DNA of 64,000 nucleotides from Rugalucina vietnamica. Its lineage: Eukaryota > Mollusca > Bivalvia > Lucinida > Lucinidae. The DNA lies in the NCBI GenBank assembly GCA_964017185.1, contig OZ024871.1:63492866-63556865 (forward strand). The letters are read 5' to 3'. The position numbers and the translations under genes are program-made. Of the stretch, positions 19,641 to 64,000 are shown in pieces (the stretch's first letter is position 1; the number at the start of each line of letters is the position of its first letter). The notes beneath the pieces were generated by a model. That model was not told the DNA's origin and searched no databases. It was given only the letters and a program-made list of their open reading frames with translations.

Positions 19641-19641
19641 T

Positions 19642-39690: not shown

Positions 39691-39749
<59 letters not shown>

Positions 39750-42700
39750 TGCTTTCCATCATTAGAAATCAATACAAACTGCGAATTTTGTATGGTTGGT
39801 TAGTTTGGAGAAATCCGAAGTCGTGAGAACAATCACATTCAACATTAATTCCCGTTTTGCTTTCAAAAACTGAGTTCTGCGGAGTACAGAAGCAAAACGG
39901 TAACTCGTATTCTGTAAAAGTGTATATTCCGTAGCACAAAGACAAAATGTTGTGAACCTCCATAAATTGACTGTAGCCAGGCCAAGGTATGAAAAATATG
40001 TGGTAAATTTCAGTATCACCAGAGAAAAGGAAAATAATTTTTTAAACCTTTCCCAAGAGCTAAAATGATCCCAACTTTTTTTCCATGTGTATAAATGTTC
40101 CACAAGTTTTAGGAGACAGATTCAATTCTTAAAAAGTTCTATGGGAGACACCATGATCTTGTTGATCCCATCGATCAGTCTAAACTTGTGACTGACCCAT
40201 TGCGGATTGCCAATTAATAATAAGGCTTTCAATTACCGGACATTCGTTTCTTACCAGATATATTCATTTTCTTGGCTTTATAATCAGTCATATGGACATG
40301 GCGGGTGCAATATAATGGGCAGGTGATGCTCGCCCTTCGCGAACACCTGATCACACCTCCTGTTTTGGGGGGTCAATGCCTGTATGACTACATATCTCGT
40401 ATTCGTCAATGTTGTTACGGATTTTTATGAGCTAGGATATATGATTTCGGTACCTTGACCCCTTTACTTCAATTTAAAAACATACCAATATAGTCACGTA
40501 AGTTAATGAATGTTTTATATAGATCTAAATAGATATTATTTTATTTTCAGAGCCAAGCATGCGAAGCAAAAGCTCGAAAACAAGCAGCTGACATTTGCAA
40601 CTGAAACATGTCGAGTGAGCATTGATCCCGCTGGTTTCGAGGTCCGGTTCATCAATGCTGATATAGGTAATGGAAATCTTTACGTCGCATGCAGTTTGAC
40701 AACGACAGAAAAGTGATTACGTTACATGTAATTCAGTTGAGTCAAAGTTTTCAGGAACATTATTTACTGAAAATTGTAGATAAGCCTAAAGGCGGCCGCT
40801 CTGGCCACAAAGCTATCTTATGACATGTTTTAATTAATTTTATTCGCTTTGGGTAACTGGTAACGATTTTTTAAAACTTTCCCGGCGATTTCAAAACCCT
40901 GCTATAAGCCAAGCAATTCGGGAACTTTATTGTAAAGTTTCTGCTTAAAGCCTCGCCCCTGGCGGATTACAGTTATGATGAGCAATAACTGGGGGTTATT
41001 CTGATAAAAATGTGAAAGATGGGCTTGAATTTGAATTTCTGCTTGTATATGTAGATGGAGGTTGGCAAATGAAATATGGACAATAAAATGGTTAAATGTG
41101 ATAAAACTCACCTAAGAATTAAATTGAGTTATTGTGACCCTGTATGTTGTTTCGCAAAGCTGTCATAGAACATGTTTTATCTTATTGCCAAGACTAGACA
41201 TAGAACAGCACTAAGACTATCATATGTAAGGCATGTCACATGTAAAATATACAAATAAAAAGTTCTAACCACCCACTTTTCAAACAAACCACTATTAAGA
41301 ATGATGAGAATTTTAGCCAGAATTTTAGTCTTTCAAGGTTCTCAAGTTGCATAGTGTTCAAAACGAACGAAACTCATTTCACTCAACTGGATTTTTGGGG
41401 TAAAATAAAAATTGTTTGGCTGGTATGCAAAGTAAATATAACGGTTTTATTTACGTAAAGGTATTAAATATAGCGATGTTATTTTTACTGGTATAAAATA
41501 GAGAAAGAAATAATGGCATTTGATGATTGTATAATGAAACCATGCGTTGAAACTTTAAGAATCAGTAAAACATTATTATTCAATGATGAAGAGGAAAAAA
41601 AATCACAAGAAGTTGGTAGGATTTGATCTCGTATCACCAATATTAACAAGTTTTGGAGTTCTTATTATAATTACTGGCACTTTATCCACTAGGCCACAGC
41701 TGAAGATATATGAATATTATACTTTTATCTTATTTAAATAAAATATTCTTTTAAGTTACTTTATATGAATAATCAGATCTATACATGAATATCAGCGCGA
41801 AAAAATGTACCTTCGGTCATTCTGACATAACTAGTAGAAAACAGCAAAAAGCGGGAAAATGATGTAATATACGTTTAGAAATAACACTGTATTTGTAATC
41901 TTTGAACACTGGGCTTCCAAATGAATGGTTTTTGAAACACACTTATTTTCAATATTTGGTGTTAACTGCCCTTGTTTTAGCCCATAATACACATAGTTTT
42001 CCTATACCTATCGTTAAACAGCAGCCATAGCAACCGCATCATAATAAATTACGACAGATTGTCTGTAAGGATGGTATGCTTCTATCTTAACAATAGGTTC
42101 TGACCAGTGTTAAAATAGTTTTAAGCACATGCATCGAGTGTGTAAGCTCTGCTATCATGCAGAAATACATTACGCACATATGATGTCATTTTTCAGGACA
42201 CTGGCGTCTGTAGGGTTCATATAGTTAATTGGTCATAACTCACAAAATAACTGTAATAATCTGGTCAAATAAAGACTTACATTCTCTTCTCTAGAAACAT
42301 CATACATTCAAAATAACTTTGTTTTTTAATACTTAAATGCCCGAAGGTACATTTCTCACGTTGTGGCCCATTTATATTCAGAGTCTGTTTCATCATAAGA
42401 TATATCATAAAATTAAAGTTATGACATCCTTAGGATATGCCGTATCTGTGTACAAAATATTTGCTTAGATGTTCTATAGGACAAAGACATATCATAATCA
42501 TTATTATGCCAACCTACTACATGTATATCACAAAATACATGAAGTCAGTCAGCTCTATTCTTAAGTTTTTTGATATTCTAATAGCGCTCATACATTCGGA
42601 GATAAATATGCAAAGAAAACCAATGGTAATTTATAAAGGTGCTTTTGAATCAAGTCATAACGCAATGCGATACATTTGCAAAAATAAAACAAAATTGTCA

Positions 42701-43449
42701 AAACTTATGTATTATCTAGTATGGTCTTTGTGGTAAGCGCGCACATGGCCAATCAGAACTGTTTTCTTGTAGGTTCAGGTGTCTTCACGCTGCAAGATTT
42801 TCAAAAGGGTGATTTTCTTCTTGAGTACAATGGAGAACTGTTATCATCGAGCGAAGCAAAGAGAAAATTCAAGTCCTACTCCCCAAGTCAGGGAAGTTTT
42901 CAGTTTGATTTTAAATACAGGGAGAAAACGTTATGGTAGGTAATATGCTAATCAAGAAACCACACTGGTCAACCTATACGCTTAATTTGTTTGTTTTACG
43001 CAAGTTTGATGGAACTTAAAATAGGGAAAATGTATATTTGTAATATCAAAAGGACTAAAGAAGTATGTAAAAAGGTGAAAGTAAGCAATGATCAGGAAAT
43101 GACACAATCATAAAGAAATTCCCACTCAAAAGCCCAGGAGGGAAACAACTAATTTGAAAATCAGGTACTTATACAGAGAGAACCTATCGTAAGACGAGTG
43201 AGCAGCTATTTCCCAAAAGGCGGCCACTCAGTTACCCGGACTATGAATACACACACACATAAGGTGAAAACAGCACAAAACATCAGCACCAAAACATAAA
43301 ACCATTCGAGAAAAAATCACCTCGATATTCTAGCCATTGCTTACTTTTACCATTGTTTCCAATACATCAGCGTTTATTCTGGTAAACCGTGGCAAACGTC
43401 GGCAAATCGACGTAAAGATTGACCAGTGTGGTAACTGGAAGTTGTGGAT

Positions 43450-43495
<46 letters not shown>

Positions 43496-46400
43496 ACGAC
43501 GCATCAACCTATGAAACAAGTCTCTTCAGTTTGTTCGGAAGATCAATCATGAAAAAGTTCGGAAAACGTAATCTACTGTAAATTAAGCAATTTAGTTTGT
43601 TATTTATTTTAACGGTAGTTGAAACAACTAGAAAGAAATCTCTAGACGTATATTGTATAGTCCCGAAGGCGTGACTTGGAGATGGCGGCTATCGACTTGC
43701 GGTAGTATAACTACACGGCCAGACAAGACAATTTGGATAATCACATGACCTGCTTTCAATATGAAACAGAGGGATGCCGCCGTCTGTTACAGTTCCTTTT
43801 TTGGAAAGAGATACCGAAGTGAATAGCCAGTTGGTGATATCTACATTGAAGATCGTTTTAGAACTGCTTACTTGTACTTTGCAGCATCGATGCCACAGAA
43901 ACGCAAGGAATGGGAAGAATGGTGAACGACAGTGCAAAGGACGAGCCCCAATGCAATTCAATTATGCACGTCATTGTAGTGGACAAAGTCCCCCACCTAT
44001 GCTTATTTGCAACCCGCAACATTGCTGTTGGAGAAGAACTCCGATATGACTATGGGGAAGGAAAAAAACTTCCCTGGCGACAGAATAAGGTAACTGCTTA
44101 TTCAAACTCCTCGTTGTTGCGTATAGTAATAAGCAAACAAGTAAAATAAATGATCTATAACAACAGCATAATCTATATACAACTTTACAAACAGATTCTT
44201 AGAATAATGACGATAGGTACATGCATTTTCCAAAAATCGTCATGACATAATATGAATCTCCTTGGGCAAGTAAAATTTCTAATAACATCTAGCGTCAAAT
44301 AAATAAAGCTATGTTCGTTATCATTCCAGGTTGTTGCCAAAGAAAATATAAGTGAGTATATATTTTTCAGATCACTTTCAGTAAACTTTATTTTAAACCG
44401 CAAGCATGTGCCTGACATAGAATGTTATATACTCTTGCATACTGTTAAGTTGTGTGTTTATTTTGAACTGATGCTTAACGTCACAGTCAACATCAAAGGT
44501 CATGTTGGGACGTTGCCTCCATTTTATGGGACTTTTACACAAAATGAGGATGTCATGATAGCCAACAAATGCTTAAAATATAACCATCCAACTAAGCTAC
44601 ATCGGCTTATATATATGAATGGTTTGAATTGAACCACCTTTCCTGGGAAAGCTCAAACCAGAGCGGTTTACTATAGATTATCAGATTGTCAGTCAGTAGC
44701 GTATAAGCTTTGCTTGGAGGCACAAGCAGCCCATCAATTTTTAGGCCCCAATGGGGGACCCGCATGAAATTGTGTATTATACATAATGAAGTAACATAAA
44801 CGGAGTGTATGTCGATAGCGAATATTCGGTAAATGTGCTTTTGACAAACGTCCAGCAATAGCAAATTTACCGACGTTTTGCTACAGACACATCTTATCAG
44901 ATACCAACCTAAACATTGTGATGTTCAAGACAAAAGTGAGTCGTTTTTCGGTATTGATAAGGAAAATGTTCTGGTAAAAACATCAGTATCAAAATGTAAA
45001 ACATCAGTATCAAAATGTGTTGAGGAATGGAAACCATTGAAAGGTAATACTTGTTCCCGTAAGATCTTATGTTTGAAAATAAAAGATGAGGCAAATTACA
45101 ATGGTCTTCTGGGACTATTCTATGTTGCCTAGCAACAATATCTGACAAAATAGCACAACTGATTTCAACGAATTATGACAAAAACCCATATATCAAACAA
45201 ATATTTGACACACATAAAGATGAAAATATGCTGACGTCAACAAAAAACGCCCCAGTTAAGTTTGAAATGCCATATTGCCGAGATAAACAATTATAATTAT
45301 ACTAAAGGAATAAAGAAAACGCAACAGACACTATGGGTTATTGTATGCTGGCTTTGTAATGCAAGCCTGTGGTGTATCTGATCTTTTACATGAAAGCACC
45401 ACCTACACGTCAAATTACAGCAGGTAAAGCCACTATATCGGTTATGTATGCTTCATGGTGTGTGCATACCACATAGTTCACCCTGGAAACATGGTCAATT
45501 AAAGTCAAATTTAAATCACAACCAATTTTATTGTTTCAAAAAGCTTAAAGTAATTGAAGATGTTACCAATTACATGTTGGTTGCGTTAAATCATGATTTG
45601 ATCAGTTTTAACGCAACATGGGATGACACTCAAGTATGTAATAACGCCAATCTTTATCACAGACTATCAAGTCGACATAAGATTAGCAAGCAAAATACTT
45701 GGCATCTTGAACTTCGCCGCGACGTTTACGTCACAATTGGCTATATCACGGTTTTTGACGTTTTGACATTAATTTTATTAATAAAATGACGTATTCTCAA
45801 TTCCAGCACATGCCACAAGCAGTCTGCAAGACATTTCTGAAAGAGGTTTTATTAAAACGCCAAAATGCCAAATACATACGTTCTGTTTAAGGAGCAGGTC
45901 TATCAGGCAGCGCTTCTTTTGGTTACACTAAGTCTTATTCCCAATACCAACGCATATGCCATATATGTAGTGGGACAACCATGTATGAACATATGTTGTT
46001 GAAACAGTTTTTTAAATCAAATTTCGTGTTTTATCGTTATTGGCGTCACTGCAGCTACTCTTCTATCGCTATCAAAATGGCAAACAATGTTTTCAAAGAC
46101 TGTAATGGCTTGGCTATTTGACAATGAATAATTCTCTATGTCACTTTCGCTGCGTTATAACGTGAAACGAATGTCCCTACGAATATATTTTGACGTCCAG
46201 GGAAATTAGCGCCAGCGTGCCATTGCTTCTTTCTCGGCTATTCAAATGAAATTATGACAATTGACTAAAATTGCGCACCCGAATATAATGGCATCGCGTG
46301 TGAAATGTTTTATCACAAGAATCGTAAAGCGTTAGAGACGTCGATGTAAAAAACGATTCTGTTGTAGGAGCATCAGCAAAAGCGCTACAATAGTAATAAT

Positions 46401-49400
46401 CGATAGAGGGGTTCTTATATCGAATGGTCCCTAACAATGGTCCCTAACTATGGAATCAACGCGGGTGCAAGAATCCGAGCAGTATCAATTTTTAGCTCAC
46501 CTGAGCCGAAGGCTCACAAGAGAGCTTATAGGATAGTAAGGCATCCGGGGTCCATCGTCCGTCGTCCACAATTTAAATGATGAATATTTCTGAAGCCAAT
46601 TGGCCAATATTGATCAAATTTGATGTGAATCATCAATGGGTTGAGGGATTTTCGAGCAGATTGTTTGAAAATTGTGGTTTCCATGGCAACAGATAGCTCC
46701 CATAGACTTACAATGGGAAAAACTAAAAAAATCTTCTCCAAAACCACAAATCCAAACGCTTTCATATTTTGTGTGTAGCAATGTAATAGTGGTCCTCTTT
46801 ACAATGCCAATCATGCCCCTGGGATCCATACAGGCCACTCCCCGGGGCCGTCATTATCTGTCAAAGGCTTATAATGGGAAATGCATATTTTTTTTTCTCT
46901 GAAACCACAATACCCAAAGCTTCTATATTTAGTATGCAACATTGTTATGTGGAGCTTTACATAAATCGGGTCAATCATAACCCTGGAGTCAAAAACGGCC
47001 CTTCCCCGGGTGGGGGTGGAGGGGTCATTAGCTTCCATAGCCTTACAATGGGGTTTAACATTAAAAAATCTTCTTCTCCGAAACCAAAAGTGATCCTCTT
47101 CATGTATCCTGCCATACGTATCCCTGGGGTCCATACAGGCTATTTCCCGGCTTGTGAATATCGGCTGGGCAATACATAAACCACAAGACCCAAAGCTTGT
47201 ATATAAAGTATGAAGCAATGTTTTGTGTTCTACATAAATCCTGCCAATCATGCCCCTGGGATAAAAAATGGATCCACCCTGGGGTCATCAGCTCCCATAA
47301 CCTTACAATGGGAAAACACACAAAAACCTTTTCCCAGTAACCATGAGTCCTAGAGCTTCTATATTTTGTGTGTAGCAATGTTAAGTAATCCTCTTTATAA
47401 AACCTGACAACCATGTCCCTGTGGTCATTACGGGCCACGCACCAGGGACGCCATTATACTCCATAGGCTAATAATAGGAAACATATGAAAAAATCTTCTC
47501 TGAAACCGCAAAACCCAAAGCTTGTATACTTAGTATGCAGCAATTTTATATGTAGCTTTACTTAGAACCTGCCAATCATGCCCTTGGGGTTCAAAATGGC
47601 ACCACCCCAGGGGAAATTAGCTCCCATATACTTACAATGGGAAAAGTATATAAAAGTCTTCTTCTCAGAAACCATGAGCCCCGGAGCTTTTATATTTTGT
47701 GTATAGCAATATTCAATAATCCTTGTTATAAATCACTCCACTTGTTCTTCTGGGGTCCATACAGGCCACGCCCCAGGGCAGGGGCCATTAGCTCCCCTTC
47801 AAGTAAAGCTGTACAGAGAAGAAGAGCGTTTACAGGACCATAGGTCCTCTGTTTTAGTTTTCTTTTCGTCGGCTGCTTTTCTTGTGAAAAAGTTCCTGTT
47901 ATTTTCAGTATTTCAACTTAACGTACATGTAGGCCAGTAAAGTACAATTTCCTTGAGTTCATAAATCTTTGCATGGTTTACACAAACTTTCACTTCAAAA
48001 GAGTCTGTATCTTGAAGTAATGGTGCAAGTATAGAAATGGTGCACCCACACCGTTTTGAGAAATGTGCGCATCTTAATCAAAGTCAGTTTATGCTATATC
48101 ATGAATGACAACGTGAAGTTAAGAGAAACAAAAAGCAAAGTCCGTCAATACTGTGCATCTCTTGGCCGAGTAATGCAACATTTTTGATTTGCCTTTTTCA
48201 TTGGCGTCAGTATCATTTAAATATCGGACTTAAGGTCAACCCCATATCGTAATGAAGTATTGCTGTTCGTATAAAAACCCTTGTATAAAATTAAACCTTT
48301 CGGTTAAGTGATAGAGGCGTTTATGAGCATGTGGCGGTTTAGAAGAATTAAAATTGACATGGATCCTACGGACGTCGCGTCAGATGTTCAGGCACAATTT
48401 GCGATTTTTTCACTTTCTTGGTCCTAAAATGTCGTCATGTCAACATTTTTTGAAGTAGCGGTATGCAAAATACATAAAAAAGATATTGAAACCAGCCTTT
48501 AGACCATGTTTTATATGTCTTGTGGCCTATTACTGAATACACCGCCAATGAATGATAAAAAGACGCTAAAAACGTCATGCCAGGCGTTACAAAATTAACC
48601 GTTATTTTCGACGAAAACAATCATAAAATCGCGATCTTCAGTAATTGTGCACTGAAACGACACACAATTGCAGTGACTTCATTGATAGAACGCCTGACAA
48701 AAGCTGAAGTCAGAAGACGAAATATTAGAGATACAACTGTATCTAGTTCGAGAGGTTCGAAAATGTCAGGTTTAGTATGAAAAGTTATAGGTAGTGTGTT
48801 GTTTGTATTATAAAAAATACTACAGAGATAGTAAATTACTAATTTTTTGTATGGACGTTTAGTTCAGTAAATGCGCATTCACGCTATATGAAAATAAATT
48901 CGATTCAGAAATTGAAAATAATTAAAACCTAAAATTTTCCGGATCTTAAAAAATGTAACACTGCCGATTTCTTAGATAAAAATCCATACGTCTATTGTTC
49001 CGTATCATAATTTTCATGTCAGAATACATCTTTTAAGGTTTTGGTTTACATGGTGTTTAAGTTCCTAAACCAATCTTTCATGTGATATTAACTAAATGAT
49101 TCTGCGTTCACTATCAACAAAACTGTGTTGATTTTCCGTGATCTTAAAAAAATGTAACATTTTGACGTTTTAGTCGATTTTACGTTACGTTACGTTATGT
49201 TCACAGGGCCAGCTTGCCTGTTTGAACAAGGCATATAGCGAGATGTTTACTCACAGTCTGGCATAAGCATACGTGGTTGGTGTTGCTATTCTTACGCGTA
49301 CTTTAATTCTCGTAGCTGTCGCTACAAATTGCAATTAAAGCGCATGCAAAAAACACACATAAGACCGCACTGTAGCCGCGATACTATGATACCGGCTCCA

Positions 49401-55400: not shown

Positions 55401-58400
55401 GGACAGACAGTTAGAAACACAGAAAAAAAGAAAAGAGGTTAAAAACGTTGATGATGAACTTGAAAAAACACATAAAAGGCTCAAACGCTATCATAAAAGT
55501 GGGGTCAGTTATGACGATGATGACGACGATGACGACGATGGTGACGATGACGACGATGATAGTGGCGATGATGATAATATAGGGGATGCTCCATATACCC
55601 CCACGAAATCAGGTGATTACAGAAGCATTTTCTATGTTTTTATATATTCTAGATATTTACATACAGCCAAAGACCCGCCCATAGACCTAGCCATTTTTAT
55701 ATATGTATGCAAGTCACAATCGTAATAATGCATCCTATTGAAACTATGCCTACAATTTATTAGATTGGCCCAGTTTGTGCAAATCGGCTCTAAATTAGCC
55801 TTGTTTGTAAGATTAGTCTACGCATGGGATTGGCCAAATTTGTAAACTTTGCCCAATGTCCGAGTTCTACAAATTGAATAAAAGTCAACCCTACCGGGTA
55901 GCGTTTGCCCTAGTACTCATGAATGGTTTTTGATTACTGTGATTTAAAAAACCTACAGCGCAGAGTGACTGTTACGGTAAGGAACACGAAAATACGTACG
56001 ATATAGGTGGCTGCAATAGTTCTGCACTTTTTGCTGTGGATAGATCAAGATAAAATTTGTAGTTATTTTATTCAACGTTTGAGATTACTTGGGTTGATGT
56101 AACTAGTCTGTATATTGAAGAGATTGAAACAGAAGAATCAGAAGAAGATGAAGAAGATGACGAGGATCAAGAGGAACATACAAAGCATAAGGAAGTGATG
56201 ATGAAATCAGGTATGTTAGAACAAAAGGGGTGAAAACTAAAATGTCACAAATTTAAAAAGGCGCGTTACGTTAAACACCCATAATCAACCGGCTTTCTAT
56301 GTTGAACAGGTAAGTCAGTTATCTACAATATTACATGTACTTGCACGTGACCTTATATATACTTAGAGCCTACAAAATATTGATTAAACTTAAATTCTTG
56401 AAATGCCAAAATCTAAAATATGTGCTCTGCAGCGTCCATCCTTGGTTGCGCAACATATGGACATCTAAAAAATAAAACACATTTATCTACAGCATGACAT
56501 TACATAGGTAGTCAAGGTATAATTTCCATTATCAATCAACATTGTGATTTCTTATATCTCTGGAACGACTACCGGTCCATACAGGATATTAGTTTCAAAG
56601 TAAAACTAATTTTATATTCACATCCGACATTGCAGGGATGGAAGAATGTACAGACGGTGACAATGCCTGTAATGATGGTAGCGCAGACAGTACAGCTGCT
56701 TCCAGGAAGCAAATGAAAAAAGGTAATTATTTTGAAGACAACTACTCTGTCCCATTCTAGTTTTATATGTTTATATCTACGTACTCGTACTATATTTCTT
56801 TTATTTTCTTTCTTCAAGTAAAATGTAGAATTCATGAAACTGTGACAGATAAATTACGCTCCAGTATTCTGAGCCACGGTTTTGATGATCACTTTATTGG
56901 TTAACCATCTGACTTAACACTAGTAATCATTGTATAAATGTGACGAGGGAGCCTCCGCGTCCTAAGTATTTACCTGTACTTTGGGCAGATGCTTGTTTGT
57001 AAAAGTTGTTATAGTGGATATCGGTTAAATCGTTTTCATAACAAACTTAGTATACATCTACCTTTACCTGCACAGGTACAAATGAAGTGTCAGACAGATA
57101 CATTGATGGTGACAGCAGTGGAGCGGAAAGTAATGACGAAAGTTCCGCAGTCAGTGCCGCTGCTTTAAAGAAACAGATGGAAAATGGTTGTTGTTTAAAA
57201 ATATTTTTCTGTATTATAAACACCTCCTCTTGCATTAAGTTTGAAAACAATTAATAGCTAAATGCACATAAATTCTTTAAAAGTAAAAGTAGGCAACGAC
57301 CAGGAAAATGCGCAATCAGAAAGAAGTTCCCTCTCCAAAAACCGAGGCGGGAAAAACTAAATTTACAATCAGGTACTTATACTAAGGAAACATATAGTAA
57401 GCCGAATGGGCAGCCATTGTTGTTGTTGTTTACATTTTCCCAATAGGTGGCCACTCAAACTTAACAAAAATTATGAAAACACACATAAGGTGCCAACAGC
57501 ACAAACAATCAACACCAAGACATAAAACAATAAGAACCACCACAGAAACTAAAATCCTAGCTTTGAACTATAAACTGGGGTTTGAAAAATTCAAACCTTT
57601 GTGTGAAAAATTTAAATCAAAGTGCACATTAATTCTTCTAACCGAGGTTTAAAGTTTCAAGTGCGCATTTATTCTTTAAAACTAGGTTTGAACTTCAAAC
57701 TAGTGTTTTAAATTTTCATGCTATGGTTTGAAAAAATATCCTTATTTGAAATCTATAAACTATGTTTTGAAACTTCAAATCGGCCAAATGCACAGTATAG
57801 TAATCATTTAAACATAGGTTTGAACTTCAAATCCAAGTTTCAGTTGACGGTCTCGCTTTGCAAAATAAACATTTAGTCGTTTAAACCATAGTTTGAATTC
57901 CAAACCTAAGTTTAAGTACGTATAAATGTGCACTTGCCTAGTTGAAATCCTGAGATTTAAAACGTTAAATCCTGGTTTCAAAAGAAAAATCGATTACTTT
58001 AATTTCAAAATATAGTTTAAAAATTTCAAACGATAGTTTACAAAAAAAAACTGTTTAAACGAAAGTTTAAGATTTTCACACCTAGATTTAAAGAATAAAT
58101 GTACACTTGGTCAGCTCAAAAGACAGTTTGAACTTTTAAACTGTGGTTTAAAGAATAAATGCGCGCTTTGAAGTTCAAATCTAGGTGAAAAAATGTGCAC
58201 TTGGCTTGCTATAACTCTCATCTGCAATTAATGAGATGTATATGGGAAACAACCAAGCTCATTGAAAGGCCTGTCTATTTAGACTGTTGTGTCTTGTTAG
58301 TTTGCTATTCCTTCATGTACTGTATGCTATGGCAACTATTGCATTACCTTGAATTACTTATTTTGTTTCAGTGAGAATTCCTGTCTACACTAAAAAACCA

Positions 58401-61400
58401 GACGGATCTCGAAATTATAAAGACAAGATTGATTACTGCCTTTATTGTGAAAGACCATACGCGTCTAAAATAGCTGTCCATTATGCGAATGTTCACACAG
58501 ACGAGCAGGATGTGAAGAAGGCACTACTTCACCCTAAAGGCACAAAAGAAAGAAATCACGCCCTTAGACTGATCGAATATAAAGGGAATTTCTATCATAA
58601 TGTGAAGGTCTGTACAATACCCCCCTATCCGACTCATAAGTAATTTCTACTTCCTAAGTTTCACCTGTTAATTTCGGTTATGTTTACAATTCCAAAAAAT
58701 ATTGGTTTAAAGATACCAAAAGGGCATGCATAACAAATGAATGTACAGCTCATCTTAAGTTGAAGGACATCTTGCAGAAGGAATTGATTCACACATAATA
58801 ACAACCAGTTTGCCACTAACAAACCGGTTTTATTATTTCTTTTGCTCCTTTCAGTAAGAATATTTAGAGTATCAAAAATTGTACGTTTAGAGCCATATTC
58901 TACGCAATGGTTCAATAATTTGACCCCGTTTAGGCATGTGTCTTTGATTTAGACATCCCTTTTGTAAAGTTTTGAAATTGCAGTATATTTACATGTATCT
59001 GGCTATCGTTGCCGGCTTATAAAGGGTCACTGATGAGGGTTAAGTACCCGAAATTGCACAATTTGGTCCATACTACCTCCCTTTGAACGTTTTCACTGCT
59101 CCCAAAGGATCAAAGTTTTATATTTCATTTGATATCAAACTAATTTTATCACTGATTTTTCAAAGCCAGTTTGTAGTTTATGGGTTCTTAAATTGAAACA
59201 ATAGACTTGCCCTTGTTTAGTTTAACTGTGTCGCTAAACCATGTGAATACGAACAGGGCGTTGTGGTATTATTTCCGTTTCCCGTTCTGATTTACGTATT
59301 ATTCACTTTGAGTAAGTTCAACAGATTTATATCAACATCTTGTTTTAACAGGTAATAGAAAAAGGTGTCGGAGATCTTGTGGTGGTGAGGAGGCCAGGAG
59401 AACACAGTGGAAGAAAATATGAAGCCCATCACTTTCTTCCATGTGAATATTGCTTGGGATTTATTCTTAATGAGTCACTTTGGCATCATCTAAAAACTTG
59501 TTCAGCCAAGCCCACAACCAATCCGGACACAAACTATGTAAGGAACGCACGAATGCTTCTGGCCCCATTTATAGGAAAACCAAATGCAGAAAAGGCAAAA
59601 ATTGATACCTTACTAAGTGGGATGAAGGAGACCGTGGCCAACCCAGGCATTAGAAAGATCTGTCAAAATGACAGACTGATTATGGAGTTCACAAAATCAG
59701 TGCTGGGAAGAGTGGGTGACGAGAATGAGCAGAGACTGAACGATATGGATACGACAAGAACAAAAGTACGAACAGTTGGGAGATTACTAAAATACCTAAA
59801 TCGAGGAGAAACTAATCCTAAGCCGCTTACTGATTACATCACCGGTCGCTCTTTCAACCAAGTACTGAATGGAGTAAGAGGAATTTCCAAGGAAAGTGAT
59901 TCACCTCAACTGGCACTCAATCTAGGCTACTATCTCAAACAGATAGCACTGCTGAAAATAAGCCTTGGGATACAGGATGGAAGCCCAATCGACCAGGAAG
60001 AAGGCAGGAATGTGCAGTTTCTGATGGCAGCACACTGGAACAACTCCATTTCGTGTGTTGCAAAACGGCGTCAGAAACTTCGCACAATAAACAAGCCAGT
60101 AGTTTTTCCAATTACATCGGACCTGGTCACCATCAAGGACTGGTTGGTCAAGGAAATCAACGCCTGCATCAAAAATCCCCAATTCAATTGGACCTGGGAG
60201 GCACGTCTGCTACTGGTACGCATACTTCTGTTTAACAAGAGGCGTGTATCAGAAGTTAGAGAATTGAAGGTCACCGACTTTCTGCAGCGCCAGCAAGACG
60301 TTGATAGCGAAGAGATTCTCAAGTCTCTAGACATCTCAGAAAGACTACTTGCAAACAGGTACATTTTCGCCTAAAGTATTAAACTTCGCGGGGGTTGTAG
60401 ATACACCACAAACCACCCCAAATCACACCGAACCACCCCAAACCACTTCAAAACCACCCCAAATCACATTAGAACACTTTTCAATCGCCTCAAAACGCAA
60501 AATATCACAAACCAGACATTTCAGCGATGCAACACTTTAACCTTACCATAAATAACTCTAAACCACATAAAACACCCTAAACCGCATCAAAGAAACGCCC
60601 TAAAATTACACCATTTCAACGCACTCAAACCTCCTCAACATCATCCCAAATAACACTTAATCACACAAACCACCTCAAAAACCAATATAAGCTTACGAAG
60701 AAAGAAACGTTAACATACACAGGTTACATGCATACATGTTTATGGGTTTTATATTGGCTCTTTCTGTGCAAACCCATATGTTATGAACATACCCATATTA
60801 CCGTTGTATGAGACTAAGTTGAGGGTTTAGGGTACTGAATGCCTGGTTTGTGATACAGTTACTACGTTTCGGGTAGTTTGTTAGTTTTGAAGTGGTTTGT
60901 GGTGTTCCCATGATCCGAAATTCACATCAAAATAATCCACAAAATGTGTAGCACTTTGTAAATGTGTATTTTGGGTCAAGTGTAATAACGCAAGGTACAG
61001 ACACATTGCAAGTGGTTTCATTAGATATAGACACAGAAAATTTTTCTAGTGTCGAATATGTATAAGAAAAACCATTAGCCCTGTATGGCTAGCATGAGTA
61101 AGAATAACAATACATCACAGTGCATGCACAATAAAACAGTTATATATATCATCACAGCAGTTTAATACTGTATATATAATAAGAGCTGTCCCAGGACAGG
61201 ATAGCTCGTCTGACTAGTGCTTTGCCACTAAATCTATTAAAATCTATGACCCATGACATTGGCTTCAAGGTCACCCAGGTGGGTCGTAATGGTACAGCAT
61301 AAAACTTCAGACCAATATCTTCCATCATACAAAGTATCAACTTTATCCATTTACATATTCGTTATAGACTTAGACTTGTAACATAAAATTTCTAAGTCTT

Positions 61401-63825
61401 TGACCTTGACCACCAGTGATTCAAGATGCTACAGTATAAAACGTAAGAATAATATCTAACAGCAAAGTATCAACTAGATCCACCCATCTGTTCCAGCAAT
61501 TTATAGTTCAAAACACTTAAAGTAAAAGCTTTAACATAAATATTCAAAGTCTGTGACCTTTGGTACAGCATTAAACTTCCGACCAATATCTACCAAGATG
61601 CAAAGTATAAACTTGATCCATCAAACATGTTCAAGAGATATAGACGTATAAAAACTTTAACCAGAATTTCTAAGTCCATGACCTTGACCTCAAGGTCACC
61701 CAGGTGGGTCGTGATGGGGTAGCATAAAACTTCAGACCAATATCTAACAACATGCAAAGTATCAATTTGATCCATCAACAACTACAAGAGATACATACGC
61801 ATAAAATCTTTAACCAAAAACGTTTACATTTAAGCAACGCCGATGCTAACACTAACGCAGACGCCAAGGTGACTACAATAGCTCTTCCTGTACTTGCGTA
61901 CAGGCGAGCTAAAAGCCTACACATTATTAAAGCGTACATATTGAAGTGTCGTAGAAATCGAACGGAAAATAGCAAACCTTTATATGAATGATTTTAATTT
62001 ATCTCTCATAAATAAATGCATATACAGCTGTAGGTCATGTTTCAACGTTGGTCATGGTCAGCTATTCTCTTTTATATTGCAGAATGAGTGTTATCGAAGT
62101 GCGGGGGAAGTCAACACGCGAAATTAGAAAGGTATACGTGCTCCTCACCCCTGATATGGTCCAGGCAATCGACCATCTGATCAGGAAAAGGAAATACAGC
62201 CACCCATTTATCTTTGGAAGGTAAAATATTCTAACTAGCTGGCAAATTAATTGCGTCAGTGTCCACTTGTCTTCTTATTGTACAGCCACTACTTTGATAA
62301 TACAGGGCTAGCCCCTAAATACATGTCTCACAATTCACACTGCAGCTTGTTTATAAAACATGTATTCAGAGTCTGATCTTTCTTTTTCGAAAGAAATATG
62401 TTTCCTCAGCGTTTAATGATTGTGTGTTTGTTTTCAGTAAGCATGGTACGAAGCCGATAGATGGGTGCACCGCGATGCGGGAGGTCACAAAGGCTTGTCC
62501 TGGACTCAAATACCCAGACAGGATAAGGACGAGAGATTTAAGAAAGTATTTGGCCACTACTTCACAGGTTAGACTGACTTTTACACAGACAATATAACTT
62601 TTTAATTTATAATCTAAAATATTAAATTTCTATATCTGAAACAAAACTGTGTTTGGAAACATTCGTTAATTCACAATAACGCGTTAACCTGCATTGTAAA
62701 AGTGCGCGAGTAAAAGCAAAATTGAAATCAATATGATTTAAAATGTGGTGTAAGATGACGATTCATAATGTGTTTATGTACTTTGATAACCATTTGAACA
62801 ATATCAAATTTAAAAGAGTTCGTTGTGCAGTGTCCTCCATGCTACCACCTCTTTACTGAATGATACGAGGGACGACATAATATTTTTTATGAGTCAATAC
62901 TCGTTCCAATGCGTCTCTTATTTTCAGATCATGGATATGAAAGATTCAGAGTTGAAGATGTTAGCGGATCACATGGGTCACAACATAAACATACACACCG
63001 ATGTGTACCGTCTCCAAAGTTCCCTTTTAGAGCGAGCCAAGGTTGCATCGGTGCTAATCGCTCTCGAAAATGGCGCATTAAACCAGTTTCAGGGAAAACG
63101 GCTTCAGGACATATCCATTAAAGGTATCGCATGTTACAATTTTATATAATGTTTTTACGACAGTTGGTGTTGCTGGTTACTGCGCTTTGAATCAGCAATG
63201 GTACCTACAGATTTAATGAATATACCCATGTGTAAAAAAAAAAATAAATAAAAATAAAAAATACGTAGACAGTTAGTTTGAGAAAGGGGTGGAAAAGTTG
63301 TTTTCGTAAGCACACAAACATACAGCTGTACTGACTATCAGTGTGACAGCCGCATCGTATAATATGTAGTAGCTAGGATACCTTCTGCCCGAGTAAATAG
63401 GGCTGAATTGCCATCCTTCTTGAACAAGCCTCCTTATCGGTTAACTAAAGGAGTTTCTATCGGTTTCCTCAGGGGTTTGAAAGTCCTTGGTTAACTGTAT
63501 GATATTTTGTATCAGTGCTTATTTATAATTGTGTCCATTTTCAACTTTGGTGTTTGGTGGGATTTTTGTTCTCATTGCGCCAGTTTTTGGTCGTTGGTCG
63601 AGTGCGAACCAATAAAACCGGTTAAAGCACGTCAATTTATTTTATATCAATCACCTTTCTGTATTATGCATTACAGATTTTATCTTTAAAACAAGACTAA
63701 AGACTACAGTTAATTAGTTAATCATGTTGTTTAAAAATTGCTGCCTTTAATTACATTCTAGATCCTGTATATTATTTCAGAATTGCCAGTGCCAGTGACA
63801 TATGATGATAATTGGGCCGAAACAG
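20132..63825 (+). CDS. Predicted SET domain-tyrosine recombinase fusion gene (18 coding exons, 3' incomplete)
   Basis: Hand-built model with coding exons 20132-20166, 40551-40666, 42773-42935, 43885-44089, 44887-45043, 48584-48769, 50661-52166, 54784-54864, 55385-55612, 56121-56210, 56636-56722, 57076-57186, 58372-58607, 59352-60358, 62083-62220, 62438-62567, 62928-63123 and 63781-63825. All junctions are AG/GT and in phase. They total 4,717 coding bases (1,572 codons plus one base) with no stop. Domain order is SET methyltransferase (about residues 35-173), linker, 27 x 18-residue repeats (about 300-789), coiled coil (790-816), acidic/Ser-rich region, two zinc-finger motifs (1011-1030, 1098-1117) and tyrosine recombinase catalytic domain (about 1360-1525). 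SET proteins transfer methyl groups to lysine, and tyrosine recombinases cut and rejoin DNA. A nuclear, chromatin-associated role is inference. The main alternative is two adjacent genes, split between 44089 and 58372. The recombinase half resembles Crypton-type domains and large uncharacterised families I recall from fish and invertebrates. Confidence 0.6.
20167..22330. other. Intron 1, proximal part
   Basis: AT-rich sequence with no further exon seen. Small ORFs here lack splice support or similarity. Confidence 0.45.
22335..22575 (+). repeat. Orphan copy of the satellite right terminus with hairpin
   Basis: ATTACGAAAACTTGCCCATG and following CAATATACAG match the last satellite unit and its flank at 33025-33060. 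Next comes a TTTTGCTACAAAACATA block, then an imperfect hairpin of CCGCCTCG and CGAGGTGG framed by GTGGGTAC and GAGTAACCAC. The hairpin end appears here without the array, as at 18618, so it belongs to a dispersed element. Confidence 0.6.
22620..22653. repeat. (TTTC)n microsatellite
   Basis: About eight TTTC tetranucleotides. Confidence 0.85.
22807..23905. mobile_element. Giant GC-rich foldback element (~1.1 kb palindrome)
   Basis: The left arm (about 22807-23338) is repeated in inverse order and complement as the right arm (about 23352-23905). Matches include GACTGAGGCGTGTGCCGG at the outer end, CCCAGACACGCTA, TTTTTAAGCATGTTTAAA, GGACGTACACCAAGCGTACC and CAACACGCCCGGCGCGCG at the inner end. 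Arms are diverged but collinear. Each arm is itself bounded by CAGTCACAC.TTAGCG-like ends, so the whole looks like two inverted copies of one ~550-bp element. The sequence is dominated by ACGCGC-type words about 9-11 bp apart. It has high CpG content in AT-rich surroundings. ORFs across it follow the CpG-rich words and are not genes. Confidence 0.85.
23935..24017 (+). repeat. Fragment of the foldback arm
   Basis: ATACGCCCGGCGCGCGTTTG, a TATACGCTACTGTGTGACTG block and CTGTTTAA repeat the inner end of the adjacent foldback arms. This is a third partial copy. Confidence 0.65.
24796..24988 (-). mobile_element. tRNA-derived SINE, copy 3
   Basis: The same head in reverse (GGCGGCCCCCGTGGCCGAGC on the minus strand) is followed by a GGGTTCGAGCCCC B box. 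The 3' part stops near CATATGAGACGGGCC without a poly-A tract, so it is 3'-truncated. It lies in intron 1. The overlapping minus-strand ORF is a translation of the SINE. Confidence 0.85.
25000..26085. other. Intron 1, no gene recognised
   Basis: AT-rich sequence. A short (TTTTA)n run lies near 25716-25740. No supported exon. Confidence 0.45.
26090..33045. repeat. Satellite array of about 17 ~393-bp units
   Basis: The block CAGCTCGGTTTGTGTCAGAC recurs near 26449 (slightly altered), 27200, 27601, 27925, 28316, 28707, 29098, 29496, 29891, 30289, 30683, 31075, 31473, 31818, 32208, 32608 and 32999. Most intervals are 390-400 bp, with shortened units near 27601 and 31473. Most units hold an imperfect palindrome with a GGGGCATATATATTATATAT core followed by AAAAGCC, a TATA-box look-alike. 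Variants such as CATACATGTAGCG recur at 29342, 30137 and 31321, that is every 2 or 3 units. ORFs of 62-188 residues occur on both strands in register with the units. Confidence 0.92.
26547..26885 (+). mobile_element. AGCTCGCC-type element inserted in the satellite
   Basis: AGCTCGCCTGCACGAAGTGC begins a segment that ends near GGCGAGCTACGCTGTCCTGC and breaks the first satellite units. Internal blocks (GACCCACCTGAGCGACCTTG, TCATGGGTCATAGATTTT) match, in reverse, the element at 61180-61915. Confidence 0.6.
33055..33195 (+). repeat. Right flank of the satellite with terminal hairpin
   Basis: After the last unit comes CAATATACAGAGATTATTTT, a TTTTTGCTCAAAACATACAT block and a weak hairpin in which CCTCGCCGAG and its neighbours are framed by GTGGGTAC and GAGTATAC. 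The same module occurs at 22335-22575 and, inverted, at 18618-18690, marking this as an element end and not random flank. Confidence 0.6.
33196..34410. other. Intron 1, no gene recognised
   Basis: No supported exon or repeat was seen. Confidence 0.45.
34417..35010 (+). repeat. TACG-word repeat, copy 1, with family Y leader
   Basis: A leader (34417-34620; GTGGTTCAAGTCAAACCATC, ATAAGCCTTAG, GTTGACTGGGACTTTAAG) precedes about 270 bp dense in GTATC, TACGT and GGCGTAT words spaced roughly 10-11 bp apart (34740-35010). The same order of leader plus word array recurs at 35455-36130. Confidence 0.6.
35455..36130 (+). repeat. TACG-word foldback repeat, copy 2, with family Y leader
   Basis: The leader (35455-35640) matches 34417-34620. 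The word array (35684-36130) is dense in ATACG, TACGTAGCAC and GGCGTATC words and is partly self-complementary about TTACATGTTAACC near 35870. Its first 350 bp match the reverse complement of 37690-38040. Confidence 0.65.
36131..37195. other. Intron 1, no gene recognised
   Basis: AT-rich sequence with several homopolymer T runs. No exon supported. Confidence 0.45.
37198..37262 (+). pseudogene. tRNA-like sequence
   Basis: TGGCCTATTGGTAGTG resembles an A box and CCCGGGTTCGATTC a B box. T-rich simple sequence follows at 37265-37350. It is probably a degraded SINE or pseudo-tRNA. Confidence 0.4.
37690..38040 (-). repeat. TACG-word foldback repeat, copy 3
   Basis: Reverse complement of the 35684-36010 array, diverged but collinear (CACGTACGTAGCG, GATACGCCACA, ATATGCTACGTATG). 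It is partly self-complementary around 37840. The overlapping ORFs are translations of the word array. Confidence 0.65.
38275..38530 (+). repeat. Interspersed repeat family X, copy 2
   Basis: Matches 10470-10730 from GTGGTGGTTCTTTTTGTTTT through GGGAAAATAGCTGCTCA to TTTTTTCCCACCTCGG and GCCTACTTGTA. Confidence 0.7.
38540..39203 (-). mobile_element. AGCTCACC-family element, reverse-oriented copy
   Basis: The minus strand starts TTTAGCTCATCTGAGCAACT with ACAAGGTGAGCT following, then carries TTCCATGGCAACATATAGCT and the ~20-bp block ACTTATAATGGGAAAAC, as in the 46490 copy. Two ~190-200-bp internal repeats (GGCAGGATTTATAAAGAGGAC) are visible. Confidence 0.65.
39245..39325 (-). pseudogene. tRNA-like SINE remnant
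   Basis: On the minus strand TTAGTGGTAAGTTATCTGG (A-box-like) and CCGAGTTCGAATCCCGTC (B box) are followed by an A/T-rich tail. A second weaker B box in the same direction is at 39425-39445. Confidence 0.4.
39691..39747. repeat. (TAA)n microsatellite
   Basis: About 19 uninterrupted TAA triplets. Confidence 0.95.
40551..40666 (+). CDS. Exon 2: N-terminal flank of SET domain
   Basis: TTATTTTCAG precedes the exon and ATATAG|GTAATGG ends it (phase 2 in, phase 1 out). It encodes a Lys-rich helix-like stretch (AKHAKQKLENK) followed by DPAGFEVRFINADIG, which leads into the SET core as in KMT5A-like proteins, where a D-P-x-G/F-E-x-x-x-I-N segment precedes G-x-GVF. ORF continuation past 40667 is intron read-through. 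Confidence 0.75.
41605..41702 (-). pseudogene. tRNA-like SINE remnant in intron 2
   Basis: On the minus strand TGGCCTAGTGGATAAAGTG resembles an A box, and GAGATCAAATCCTA a decayed B box with enlarged spacing. It is not a functional tRNA. Confidence 0.4.
42773..42935 (+). CDS. Exon 3: SET domain, first half
   Basis: Flanked by TTTTCTTGTAG and TTATG|GTAGGT. It encodes GSGVFTLQDFQKGDFLLEYN.. and ..FKYREKTL, matching the start of the KMT5A-type SET fold (G-x-GVF, then KGDF-(V/L)-(V/L)-EY-x-GEL). The exon ends in phase 2, and TG plus the first C of the next exon makes the Cys that precedes I/V-DAT in the family. Confidence 0.88.
43075..43312 (-). repeat. Interspersed repeat family X, copy 3
   Basis: Reverse-oriented copy of 10470-10730 (GCAGCTATTTCCCAAAAGGC, GGCCACTCAG, CATAAAACC). 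It lies in intron 3. Confidence 0.65.
43450..43493. repeat. Long A homopolymer
   Basis: About 44 consecutive A. It could be the tail of a retroposed sequence, but I see no target duplication. Confidence 0.9.
43885..44089 (+). CDS. Exon 4: SET domain, second half with catalytic motifs
   Basis: Acceptor TACTTTGCAG, donor ATAAG|GTAACT. It encodes CIDATE.. (residue 105 on), GRMVNDSAK at 115-123 where most SET enzymes have RxxNHS, HVIVVDKVPHLCLFATRNI, and GEELRYDYG at 154-162, the signature that supplies the active-site Tyr. It ends PWRQNK. The Asn is conserved but the following His is Asp, so cofactor contacts may differ from classical enzymes. Length (~140 residues for the whole domain) fits KMT5A, and no post-SET Cys cluster is present. 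Confidence 0.9.
44330..44351 (+). other. Possible alternative 22-nt micro-exon
   Basis: CATTCCAG|GTTGTTGCC...ATATAA|GTGAGT has good signals at both ends and accepts phase 0 from exon 4, but it leaves phase 1, which does not fit the next exon at 44887. It may be alternatively spliced to a later phase-1 exon such as 48584 or 50661, or be chance. Confidence 0.3.
44887..45043 (+). CDS. Exon 5: linker with duplicated VSKCKTS motif
   Basis: TTTTGCTACAG precedes it and TGAAAG|GTAATAC follows (phase 0 in, phase 1 out). It joins exon 4 directly in frame and encodes a Lys/Ser-rich linker containing a perfect tandem duplication of 21 bp at 44977-44997 and 44998-45018 (KTSVSKC twice). No known domain. 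Support comes from the phase match and donor quality. Confidence 0.5.
45044..48583. other. Intron between exons 5 and 6
   Basis: It contains the AGCTCACC-family element at 46490-47856. A 113-codon ORF at 45448-45789 has no splice support or similarity and is not called as a gene. Confidence 0.5.
46490..47856 (+). mobile_element. AGCTCACC-family element with ~200-bp internal repeats
   Basis: It starts TTTAGCTCACCTGAGCCGAA with the AGGCTCACAAG hairpin arm and ends GCGTTTACAGGACCATAGGT followed by CCTCTGTTTT. The inside differs from the 7061 copy. It repeats a block with TTACAATGGGAAAA, AAATCTTCTTCTC.GAAACCA, CCTGCCAATCATGCCC and CTGGGGTCCATACAGGCCAC about every 200 bp. Both ends are shared with the 7061 type, so different cores share the same ends. 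Confidence 0.72.
48584..48769 (+). CDS. Exon 6: possible linker exon
   Basis: CATGCCAG|GCGTTACAAAA at the left and ATGTCAG|GTTTAGT at the right, phase 1 in and out, so it slots between exons 5 and 7 without disturbing the frame. It encodes a 62-residue segment with LTVIFDENNHKIAIFSN followed by a basic RLTKAEVRRRNIR stretch and a Ser/Arg-rich tail. Polypyrimidine support is weak and no family is recognised. Frame compatibility and unbroken coding are the evidence. Confidence 0.45.
49735..50660. other. Intron between exons 6 and 7
   Basis: AT-rich sequence with an (AAT)n-like run near 50490-50520 and a reverse tRNA-like B box near 49875. No exon supported. Confidence 0.4.
50661..52166 (+). 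CDS. Exon 7: 27 tandem copies of an 18-residue repeat
   Basis: CCTATTGTAG precedes it and ATCACGAG|GTAATG follows, phase 1 both sides. After DDKLDGLP the exon is 27 units of 54 bp (a few 57-60 bp) encoding TSPPIHDNGNGTVSGDRE or near variants, about residues 300-789. The last nine units are more diverged than the first eighteen, indicating recent expansion at the 5' side. The repeat is hydrophilic, Pro/Gly/Asn-rich and likely disordered. This frame has no internal ATG and no stop from 50639 on. The long ORFs in other frames (361 residues on the minus strand at 50428-51513 and 329 on the plus strand at 50661-51650) exist because the unit length is a multiple of three. Confidence 0.75.
52167..52567. 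other. Intron, no feature
   Basis: AT-rich. Nothing recognised. Confidence 0.45.
52571..54160. mobile_element. 1.6 kb near-complete palindrome with TA target duplication
   Basis: The outer ends are CAGGTGCGTTCAGTTATTAA on the left and its complement on the right, each flanked by TA (52569-52570 and 54161-54162), as for Tc1/mariner-type insertions. Collinear inverted matches continue inward, for example TGCCAGTGAC, ACTTAGTTTTATATTG, CTACC(A/T)GG, GACATGCTTACCTC and CCCACGTTCTG. Weaker similarity reaches the centre near 53365. Arms are therefore about 800 bp with almost no spacer. No transposase ORF is present. It sits in the intron between exons 7 and 8. Confidence 0.85.
54222..54453. mobile_element. 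Palindromic MITE
   Basis: Terminal inverted repeats GGCCCGAGGTTATAAAACTT and (right, complement) GGCCCGAAGGTTATAAAACT. Further inner pairs are CAGCTCAGCTGAG / CTCAGCTGAG and TTTATCCTGCTCATAAAT / ATTTATGAGCAGGATAAA. About 230 bp long. The superfamily was not determined. Confidence 0.85.
54784..54864 (+). CDS. Exon 8: coiled-coil segment
   Basis: TATAAAACAG|GTGCTGG and GCAAAAG|GTAATT, phase 1 in and out. It encodes GAGTSLYKELEELRAQNARL and LRLLQAK, with Leu/Tyr/Asn at heptad spacing typical of a leucine-zipper coiled coil (residues 790-816). This suggests dimerisation. The coding sense is clear although the exon is only 81 bp. Confidence 0.72.
55130..55245 (+). repeat. Family Y fragment
   Basis: TTGCCCAGGAAAAGTG, ATATAAGCATT and GGATGTCATGACAACCTAAT match the leader segments at 34417 and 35455. 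Confidence 0.55.
55385..55612 (+). CDS. Exon 9: basic helix then poly-acidic tract
   Basis: TATTTCAG|AAACAAATTC and AAATCAG|GTGATT, phase 1 both sides. A basic, coiled-coil-like part (DRQLETQKKRKEVK..ELEKTHKRLKRYHK) continues the coiled coil of exon 8. It is followed by an Asp run encoded by GAT/GAC triplets (55511-55570) and then GDAPYTPTKSG. Acidic tracts of this kind are common in nuclear proteins. The triplet run could vary in length between alleles. Confidence 0.75.
56121..56210 (+). CDS. Exon 10: Glu/Asp-rich segment
   Basis: GTATATTGAAG|AGATTG and AAATCAG|GTATGT, phase 1 both sides. It encodes EIETEESEEDEEDDEDQEEH and TKHKEVMMKSG. The exon 9 end (TKSG) and this end (MKSG) are alike, hinting at exon duplication. 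The acceptor is short of pyrimidines, so the left edge is less sure. Confidence 0.62.
56636..56722 (+). CDS. Exon 11: acidic/Ser segment
   Basis: CGACATTGCAG|GGATGG and AAAAAAG|GTAATT, phase 1 both sides. It encodes GMEECTDGDNACNDGSADST and AASRKQMKK. It resembles exon 12 in layout (D-G-D-x-x ... S-A-x-(S/T)-A-A ... K-(K/Q)-M), so 11 and 12 are probably a tandem exon duplication. Confidence 0.68.
57076..57186 (+). CDS. Exon 12: acidic/Ser segment, paralogous to exon 11
   Basis: TACCTGCACAG|GTACAAATG and GAAAATG|GTTGTT, phase 1 both sides. It encodes ..RYIDGDSSGAESNDESSAVS and AAALKKQMEN. The donor GTTGTT is weak, but a read-through stays open for only about 20 more codons. Confidence 0.65.
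57283..57548 (-). repeat. Interspersed repeat family X, copy 4
   Basis: Reverse copy of 10470-10730 with CCAAAAACCGAGGCGGGAAA, AATAGGTGGCCACTCA and CCAAGACATAAAAC. A (GTT)n insertion is present near 57418. Confidence 0.7.
57560..58210. repeat. TTTGAA-word foldback array
   Basis: The stretch is packed with GGTTTGAA, TTCAAAC and GTTTAAA words. The two ends are inverted relatives: AAAGTGCACAT..TTTATTCTTTAAA.CTAGGTTTGAA at the left matches the complement of the right end (AAGTGCACATTTTTTCACC, TTTATTCTTTAAA). No coding sense. It has the same design as the ACGCGC and TACG arrays but different words. Confidence 0.65.
58372..58607 (+). CDS. Exon 13: zinc-finger motif 1
   Basis: TTTTGTTTCAG|TGAGAATTCC and GTGAAG|GTCTGT, phase 1 in, phase 0 out. 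It encodes VRIPVYTKKPDGSRNYKDK then DYCLYCERPYASKIAVHYAN and VHTDEQDV. C1011-x2-C1014-x10-H1025-x4-H1030 is a C2H2-like finger, continued by KALLHPKGTKERNHALRLIE and YKGNFYHN. I recall the same order (finger, K-x-x-K-E-R..., GN(F/Y)-x-HN) just before the second finger in uncharacterised fish and invertebrate recombinase-like proteins. Confidence 0.83.
58608..59351. other. Intron
   Basis: No repeat or extra exon recognised. Confidence 0.5.
59352..60358 (+). CDS. Exon 14: zinc finger 2 and recombinase N-terminal domain plus box I
   Basis: TTTTAACAG|GTAATAG and GCAAACAG|GTACAT, phase 0 in, phase 2 out, 336 residues. F-L-P-C1098-E-Y-C1101 ... LWHHLKTC1117 is a C2HC-type zinc finger. After it, a helical region (about 1120-1340) fits the core-binding/SAM-like part of a tyrosine recombinase. 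LLLVRILLFNKRRVSEVREL matches box I (consensus T-G-x-R-x-S-E-L) with the catalytic Arg at 1365 (codon 60243). Codon use is even and there are no breaks. The ORF past 60359 (ending YIFA) is intron read-through. Confidence 0.87.
60390..60915. repeat. CCAC-word foldback array
   Basis: From 60395 the plus strand is C/A-rich with words such as AACCACCCCAAA and AATCACA every 10-11 bp, fading by about 60690. Near 60885-60915 the complement appears (GAAGTGGTTTGTGGTGTT), matching ACACCACAAACCAC at 60400. It is a weaker relative in design of the other word foldbacks. Confidence 0.5.
61180..61915 (-). mobile_element. AGCTCGCC-type element, reverse orientation
   Basis: The right end reads TACAGGCGAGCTAAAA, the complement of the AGCTCGCCTG start seen at 26547, and the left end GAGCTGTCCCAGGACAGG and following ATAGCTCG matches the complement of 26870-26895. 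GTCACCCAGGTGGGTCGT repeats twice inside. It lies in the intron between exons 14 and 15 and has no protein gene. Confidence 0.65.
62083..62220 (+). CDS. Exon 15: recombinase catalytic Lys hairpin
   Basis: TTTATATTGCAG|AATGAG and TTGGAAG|GTAAAA, phase 2 both sides. It encodes MSVIEVRGKSTREIRKVYVL then LTPDMVQAIDHLIRKRKY, matching the V-x-GK-x-x-K-x-R-x-V-P-L beta-hairpin and the following helix of tyrosine recombinases. Lys-1412 is the likely catalytic Lys. It ends SHPFIFGR/S, where the family often has a PFVFG-type segment. Confidence 0.83.
62438..62567 (+). CDS. Exon 16: recombinase box II (xxR)
   Basis: TTTGTTTTCAG|TAAGC and ACTTCACAG|GTTAGA, phase 2 in, phase 0 out. IRTRDLRKYLATTSQ aligns with H-D-L-R-H-x-x-A-T of box II. 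Arg-1484 is the catalytic second Arg, and the usual His is Arg-1481. His-to-other changes at this position are tolerated in some tyrosine recombinases, so this does not by itself prove inactivity. Confidence 0.85.
62928..63123 (+). CDS. Exon 17: recombinase C-terminal box with His and nucleophile Tyr
   Basis: CTTATTTTCAG|ATCATG and TTAAAG|GTATCG, phase 0 in, phase 1 out. LADHMGHNINIHTDVYRLQ matches the (L/H)-(L/M)-GH-x8-Y end of tyrosine recombinases, with His-1510 and Tyr-1519 nine residues apart as usual. It then continues into RAKVASVLIALENG and GKRLQDISIK, as in the fish/invertebrate family I recall. Confidence 0.87.
63781..63825 (+). CDS. Exon 18: downstream linker exon
   Basis: TATTATTTCAG|AATTGCC and GAAACAG|GTACGC, phase 1 both sides. 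It encodes ELPVPVTYDDNWAET in frame after DISIK. There is no stop, so the gene continues past the right edge of the window. Confidence 0.7.
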
Positions 63826-64000
63826 GTACGCATGTTGAATGGGAACGAGTGGAAATTTACATTATTTTCTGTAAAAATATGCCTCAGATATACAAAATAG
63901 GTTTAGTTGTCCCTTAATTCAAAATTTTATAATAAAAAAATCGCAGATATTCAGCCAAGATATTTCCTTCTTCAGTTTTACAACATTGTAGGTAATCTGC

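Follow-up and report, generated by a model that had tools for sequence, protein, structure and literature searches.

A candidate group of giant animal transposons with a SET-carrying tyrosine recombinase and ends at dinucleotide microsatellites

A 64,000-nucleotide stretch of the genome of the lucinid bivalve Rugalucina vietnamica (contig OZ024871.1, positions 63,492,866 to 63,556,865; hereafter the window) carries exons for a SET methyltransferase domain and, farther along the same strand, exons for a tyrosine recombinase (YR). This arrangement raises the question of whether one gene joins the two domains and, if so, whether that gene belongs to the host or to a mobile element. So far as can be judged from sequence, the joined SET-YR gene is real. 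We are fairly confident that the greater part of one giant DNA transposon, 50 kb long, lies in the window and that its sole recognised gene is this fusion. Such elements are best read as a new animal group of giant YR transposons that use a SET-carrying recombinase and integrate into microsatellites.

The exon chain from SET to recombinase

Exons re-derived from the window sequence comprise SET exons, seven linking exons and YR exons, all on the + strand. The linking exons are all in phase, and the SET part (40551-44089) is thereby joined to the YR part (58372-63825) in a gene that runs beyond the window. Within the window the model has 16 exons and 1,453 codons. The first exon found lies at 40551-40666, and the start exon was not located. 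All 16 exons, listed here, are intact in each of three near-identical copies of the element described below (family 1).

40551..40666, + strand: SET exon, the first located
42773..42935, + strand: SET exon
43885..44089, + strand: SET exon (GRMVNDS ... ELRYDYGE ... LPWRQNK), ending in phase 0
44330..44351, + strand: linking microexon of 22 nt, moving phase 0 to phase 1
50661..52166, + strand: minisatellite exon of 1506 nt, with a 54-bp (18-aa) unit in about 27 in-frame copies
54784..54864, + strand: linking exon, phase 1-1
55385..55612, + strand: linking exon, acidic, phase 1-1
56121..56210, + strand: linking exon, acidic, with a weak acceptor
56636..56722, + strand: linking exon, phase 1-1
57076..57186, + strand: linking exon with a weak donor, by eye like 56636-56722
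58372..58607, + strand: YR-half exon with the first Cys/His knuckle
59352..60358, + strand: YR exon with the second Cys/His knuckle, the core-binding part and the first catalytic Arg (FNKRRVSEV)
62083..62220, + strand: YR exon with the catalytic Lys (VRGKST)
62438..62567, + strand: YR exon with the second catalytic Arg (RDLRKYLATT)
62928..63123, + strand: YR exon with the catalytic His and Tyr (HMGHNINIHTDVYR)
63781..63825, + strand: C-terminal exon

Each linker after the microexon is phase 1-1, and no stop follows directly after the SET core, which ends LPWRQNK. Three further exons beyond the window, recognised by eye (the last one by tblastn), complete the tail and supply the stop. An earlier, sequence-only reading had proposed a single gene of this kind with eight linking exons and 1,572 codons; the in-phase, uninterrupted chain stands, whereas its dimensions are corrected by the present model.

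The single gene draws sequence-level support from other animals and from the same genome. SET followed by YR recurs in at least 11 predicted proteins, which come from 8 species (coral, hydroid, echinoderms and fishes), as found with query words from the first 500 residues and the best 7990 candidates scored, and for several of these species many isoforms of the protein are predicted. In the 1.09 Gb of R. vietnamica sequence (47 contigs), SET matches fill at least 53 rows, and YR matches from two query sets (26 and 56 rows) merge into at least 39 loci. Twelve of these 39 have a SET match 8.8-19.9 kb upstream on the same strand, against a chance expectation of 0.024, and no other SET/YR arrangement occurs within 25 kb; the count leaves out wider same-strand pairs (73 kb on C9, 120 kb on C4). 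Because copies within a family are not independent, the twelve pairs stand for five lines: family 1 (C3:63.5 Mb, which is the window, C2:65.2 and C3:43.8), family 2 (C13:11.5 and C3:44.5), family 3 (C4:78.7, C2:30.4 and C1:82.2), family 4 (C8:9.2, C14:25.0 and C17:27.2) and a single locus outside these families (C1:90.5). A chance chain of exons is ruled out by the order shared across species, the twelve genomic pairs and the three intact copies.

Contig C11 holds many of the SET-less YR loci, several with stop codons; these might be old copies or reflect an unusual chromosome. At C11:33.95-34.07 Mb there are also tandem SET-bearing open frames, most of about 835 aa and spaced roughly 12 kb apart; six loci inspected there, of 3.35 kb each, gave no match to YR.

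The sequence-only reading had called the combination new. This fits the literature matches listed, which come from mostly open-access full text and describe neither a SET-YR fusion nor a giant animal YR transposon, but it fails for sequence databases, where uncharacterised predicted proteins with the same order were already deposited. A query restricted to the SET region returned three proteins among 164 candidates, none of them molluscan, which says little about SET-YR proteins in molluscs. A similar SET is joined to a protein kinase and BRCT in Acanthaster and to FHA in Argopecten, which suggests that the middle part swaps modules. The repeat following SET in other animals differs from the minisatellite of the window, and internal repeats are not special to SET-YR proteins (61 in one SET-less protein and 36 in another, against 24-342 in the eleven, by the same script and without a null model).

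The SET domain is KMT5A-like, KMT5A being the closest among solved structures (by sequence, with the fold examined on one family protein). Its Y-G end is retained. At the cofactor motif NHS the window has GRMVNDS, and ND replaces NH in 11 of the 13 family SETs aligned, the exceptions being Argopecten (NH) and Mya (NN). The SET tree had too little support and was not used. On the recombinase side, a YR fold with core-binding and catalytic domains was found, and among 40 aligned rows, fragments included, the catalytic residues are kept in 38 (Arg I), 35 (Lys), 35 (Arg II), 35 (His III) and 37 (Tyr), the remaining rows being mostly gaps in fragments. By sequence the YR half matched nothing in the PDB. 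Foldseek/VIA rows naming a Crypton or Starship captain were also absent, which is uninformative. A viral or bacterial origin was also considered: two viral-contig scans (two short patterns each) and one scan of bacteria and archaea (one pattern) yielded no relatives, all weak tests.

Comparison of the family-1 copies adds a measure of selection. The SET part shows no amino-acid change and 0-1 silent changes, and the ratio of nonsynonymous to synonymous differences per site (pN/pS) in the YR part is near 0.1 (1N/3S, 4N/8S and 3N/9S); on these small counts, the case for constraint is better for YR than for SET. The minisatellite exon, at 50661-52166, has a pN/pS of about 1.4-1.5 and in-frame lengths of 1506, 1506 and 1284 in the three copies, a fast-changing exon next to conserved domains.

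The repeated element and its microsatellite ends

The SET-YR gene sits within a 50,003-bp element that has two further near-identical copies, and all three stop at the same two points. Its principal features are as follows.

19684..64000 and 5,686 bases past the window, + strand: element of 50,003 bp, beginning ACTAGGAAATCTCC at 19684 and ending CCTTCGTG followed by TATATA...; three copies with common ends
19644..19683, no strand: (AT)n microsatellite of 40 bp in the left flank, the window's only perfect dinucleotide run of at least 16 bp
19746..19780, no strand: 35-bp palindrome near the left end, with 15-bp arms AAATTTGTGGGGCAT and ATGCCCCACAAATTT around ATATA
26899..33045, no strand: tandem repeats of about 398 bp within the element, with homologous repeats in the other two copies

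Identity between the window and the C2 copy is 98.5-99.2% to the right of 37022 and 95.7-98.6% to the left of it, and between the window and the C3:43.8 copy it is 93.4-97.8%. This likeness takes in introns and non-coding sequence too, and is interrupted by insertions and deletions that reach a few kb. The element extends for about 21 kb to the left of the gene and for about 4.3 kb to its right. In family 1, open frames other than this gene do not exceed 157 aa outside the two repeat arrays, although split genes could escape such a count, and no reverse transcriptase was recognised among the long frames, a comparison made without profiles. Family 2, about 29 kb long, has no nucleotide likeness to family 1. 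Families 3 and 4 are represented by right parts only, from two of three copies each, their third copies being known by near-equal match scores.

All 19 element ends examined adjoin (TA)n or (GT)n. In families 1-4, where a dinucleotide run was counted if it was at least 12 bp long and no more than 12 bp away, (TA)n accompanies six ends of family 1 and the right ends of two family-4 copies, and (GT)n accompanies four ends of family 2 and the right ends of two family-3 copies. Queries with the ends themselves add three left and two right family-1-type ends, all at (TA)n. As background, perfect dinucleotide runs of at least 16 bp make up 0.33% of the 361 kb fetched, ends included, and in the window plus 20 kb downstream (84 kb) the only two such runs are those at the two element ends. 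Beyond the ends of the C2 and C3:43.8 copies there are more (TA)n runs, at distances of tens to hundreds of bases, suggesting that TA-rich repeats were the insertion sites.

The same ends also bound shorter elements. Those on C12 (21 kb) and C6 (23.5 kb) have both family-1 ends at 81-85% identity, and C7 has the left end at 80%; inside the C12 and C6 elements, the matches listed (best candidates exon by exon) include none to SET or YR. Since the best 40 of 729 candidates were scored for the right-end query, right ends may be under-counted; of its 45 rows, 35 are confined to a dispersed repeat in the query's first 70 bases. The palindrome near the left end, a possible recombinase binding site, was matched on both strands at six places.

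The outer 3-kb flanks of the family-1 copies share short repeats of up to about 310 bp. The closest of them, about 190 bp long and with an (AT)n as its tail, lies at 19448-19643 in the window; in C2 it occurs in both orientations beside the left end, and by eye it resembles the left flank on C12. We read it as a dispersed repeat that was struck more than once. Farther out, at 7166-9348, lies a 464-bp tandem repeat (4.7 copies, 94% matches).

Mobile element or host gene

The retained catalytic residues, together with a repeated element of about 50 kb with fixed ends at dinucleotide microsatellites, make the gene look like a mobile-element recombinase. The earlier suggestion of a domesticated gene is not supported, and the SET-YR gene is probably not domesticated. 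More broadly, it seems likely, with real room for doubt, that animals harbour a superfamily of YR transposons of about 29-50 kb that carry a KMT5A-like fusion and use dinucleotide microsatellites as sites, with the repeat as crossover sequence.

Several observations weigh against these conclusions. The histidine of the HxxR motif in the YR site is replaced by Arg (23) or Thr (13) in the 40 rows, and the SET carries ND where the KMT5A type has NH. The Pfam Phage_integrase profile, named earlier as a check on the joined protein, does give a match in the window, but below cut-off; it is seen, again below cut-off, in one of nine relatives and is absent in eight. No SET lies within 25 kb of 27 of the 39 YR loci, many of which are fragmentary or broken. 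In the YR relatives of highest identity (Dreissena, Lineus, Crassostrea, Mercenaria and Elysia) no SET is annotated. Constraint on the linking exons is not clear (0N/1S, 7N/1S and 7N/2S). Finally, the window and C2 left flanks share about 190 bp up to the (AT)n, so these sites are not wholly unrelated.

Alternatively, the loci could be segmental duplications whose borders fall at microsatellites because DNA tends to break or mispair there; the host SET-YR gene that they copy would then encode a domesticated recombinase or a DNA-binding protein. Microsatellites are known breakpoints, the gene has many introns, and the shared left flank would fit. We nevertheless consider this unlikely, given that the same two ends recur in five elements (three full and two shorter) as well as in the C7 left end, that one end rule applies in four families, and that the catalytic residues are kept, unlike those of Crypton-derived DUF3504 genes, which were lost (PMC3212892). 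It is also quite improbable that SET and YR are neighbouring, separately transcribed genes of one element that gene predictors have fused elsewhere: the microexon gives the exact phase change needed, the chain is open in three copies, the same order appears in 8 species (several with many isoforms), and the SET core lacks a stop directly after it. What speaks for two genes is that YR-only predicted proteins are common, that a SET-only product could end 19 codons past 44089 by intron read-through, and that the Acanthaster SET is joined to kinase and BRCT instead.

The gene might instead be a passenger, moved by another enzyme encoded in the element, the activity of the YR being a predicted one and roughly 21 kb of the element lying left of the gene. 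We give this idea very little credence; outside the two repeat arrays family 1 has no competing open frame above 157 aa, SET-YR is the feature known to be common to all four families, and the ends bear palindromes, as YR sites do.

If the gene is indeed the recombinase of a giant transposon, the YR would bind the subterminal palindromic repeats of the element and recombine it, probably in circular form, with a (TA)n or (GT)n microsatellite of matching type. That microsatellite would serve as a short identical crossover region and would so remain on both sides. The Cys/His knuckles and helical tail may aid DNA binding, and the shorter elements with the same ends may be mobilised in trans. The likeliest substrates of the KMT5A-type SET half would be histones, or other proteins present where the element leaves or lands. 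We can only guess at its benefit: it might help to choose permissive chromatin, or it might shape the element's own silencing, and we lean slightly against each.

If true, the enzyme would write chromatin marks where it recombines DNA, and a recombinase with its own methyltransferase would allow a direct test of the way in which mobile DNA deals with chromatin. Giant YR transposons have been described from fungi, and an animal counterpart would give a route for moving large pieces of DNA. Microsatellites would be a plentiful and mostly harmless target, and integration there might account for some large structural variants. With its conserved active site, the enzyme can be tested straight away.

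Comparison with known systems

DIRS and Ngaro are YR retrotransposons present in animals. The present elements differ in that no reverse transcriptase was recognised (no profile search was made) and in that mobile copies keep introns. PMC3212892 mentions DIRS and Ngaro, presents the short direct repeats of fungal Cryptons as their presumed recombination substrate, and says that animal Cryptons (CryptonA/I) are without a C-terminal domain and without terminal repeats. Cryptons and our elements would both be YR DNA transposons of animals, but ours are 29-50 kb long and have SET, knuckles and a helical tail. In 11 proteins scanned with Pfam (two joined parts of the window protein and 9 of the 60 proteins found), DUF3504 was not matched at E up to 1; most of these proteins missed the general YR profile as well. 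A Crypton-derived DUF3504 gene is not favoured, there being no profile match and the catalytic residues being kept. Domesticated Crypton YR genes of the WOC/ZMYM/KCTD1 type lost these residues, whereas here R, K, R, H and Y are kept in multi-copy elements with fixed ends.

Starships of Pezizomycotina are described in PMC12134995 as elements that a YR, the captain, mobilises; they measure 15 to about 700 kb and have direct repeats at their ends, and many captains occur solo. Our elements share with them giant size (50,003 bp and a family of about 29 kb) and fixed ends with direct repeats there, 19 of 19 ends being at dinucleotide repeats. In fungi the captain carries DUF3435, occupies the 5' end and brings cargo along, whereas here SET is fused to YR, about 4.3 kb separate the end of the gene from the element's right end, cargo was not recognised, and dinucleotide microsatellites form the flanks. 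DUF3435 likewise gave no match at E up to 1 in the same 11 proteins, a weak test because the general YR profile failed in most of them too. PMC3537659 was a further source for comparison.

For the methyltransferase half, KMT5A (SET8) is alike in sequence and fold, and the differences are ND for NH in 11 of 13 aligned and a long repeat-bearing tail after SET. SETMAR (Metnase) likewise fuses a SET methyltransferase to a transposition enzyme; it is described as a co-opted primate fusion with a mariner transposase, whereas here a KMT5A-type SET is joined to a YR, in several phyla and on repeated elements.
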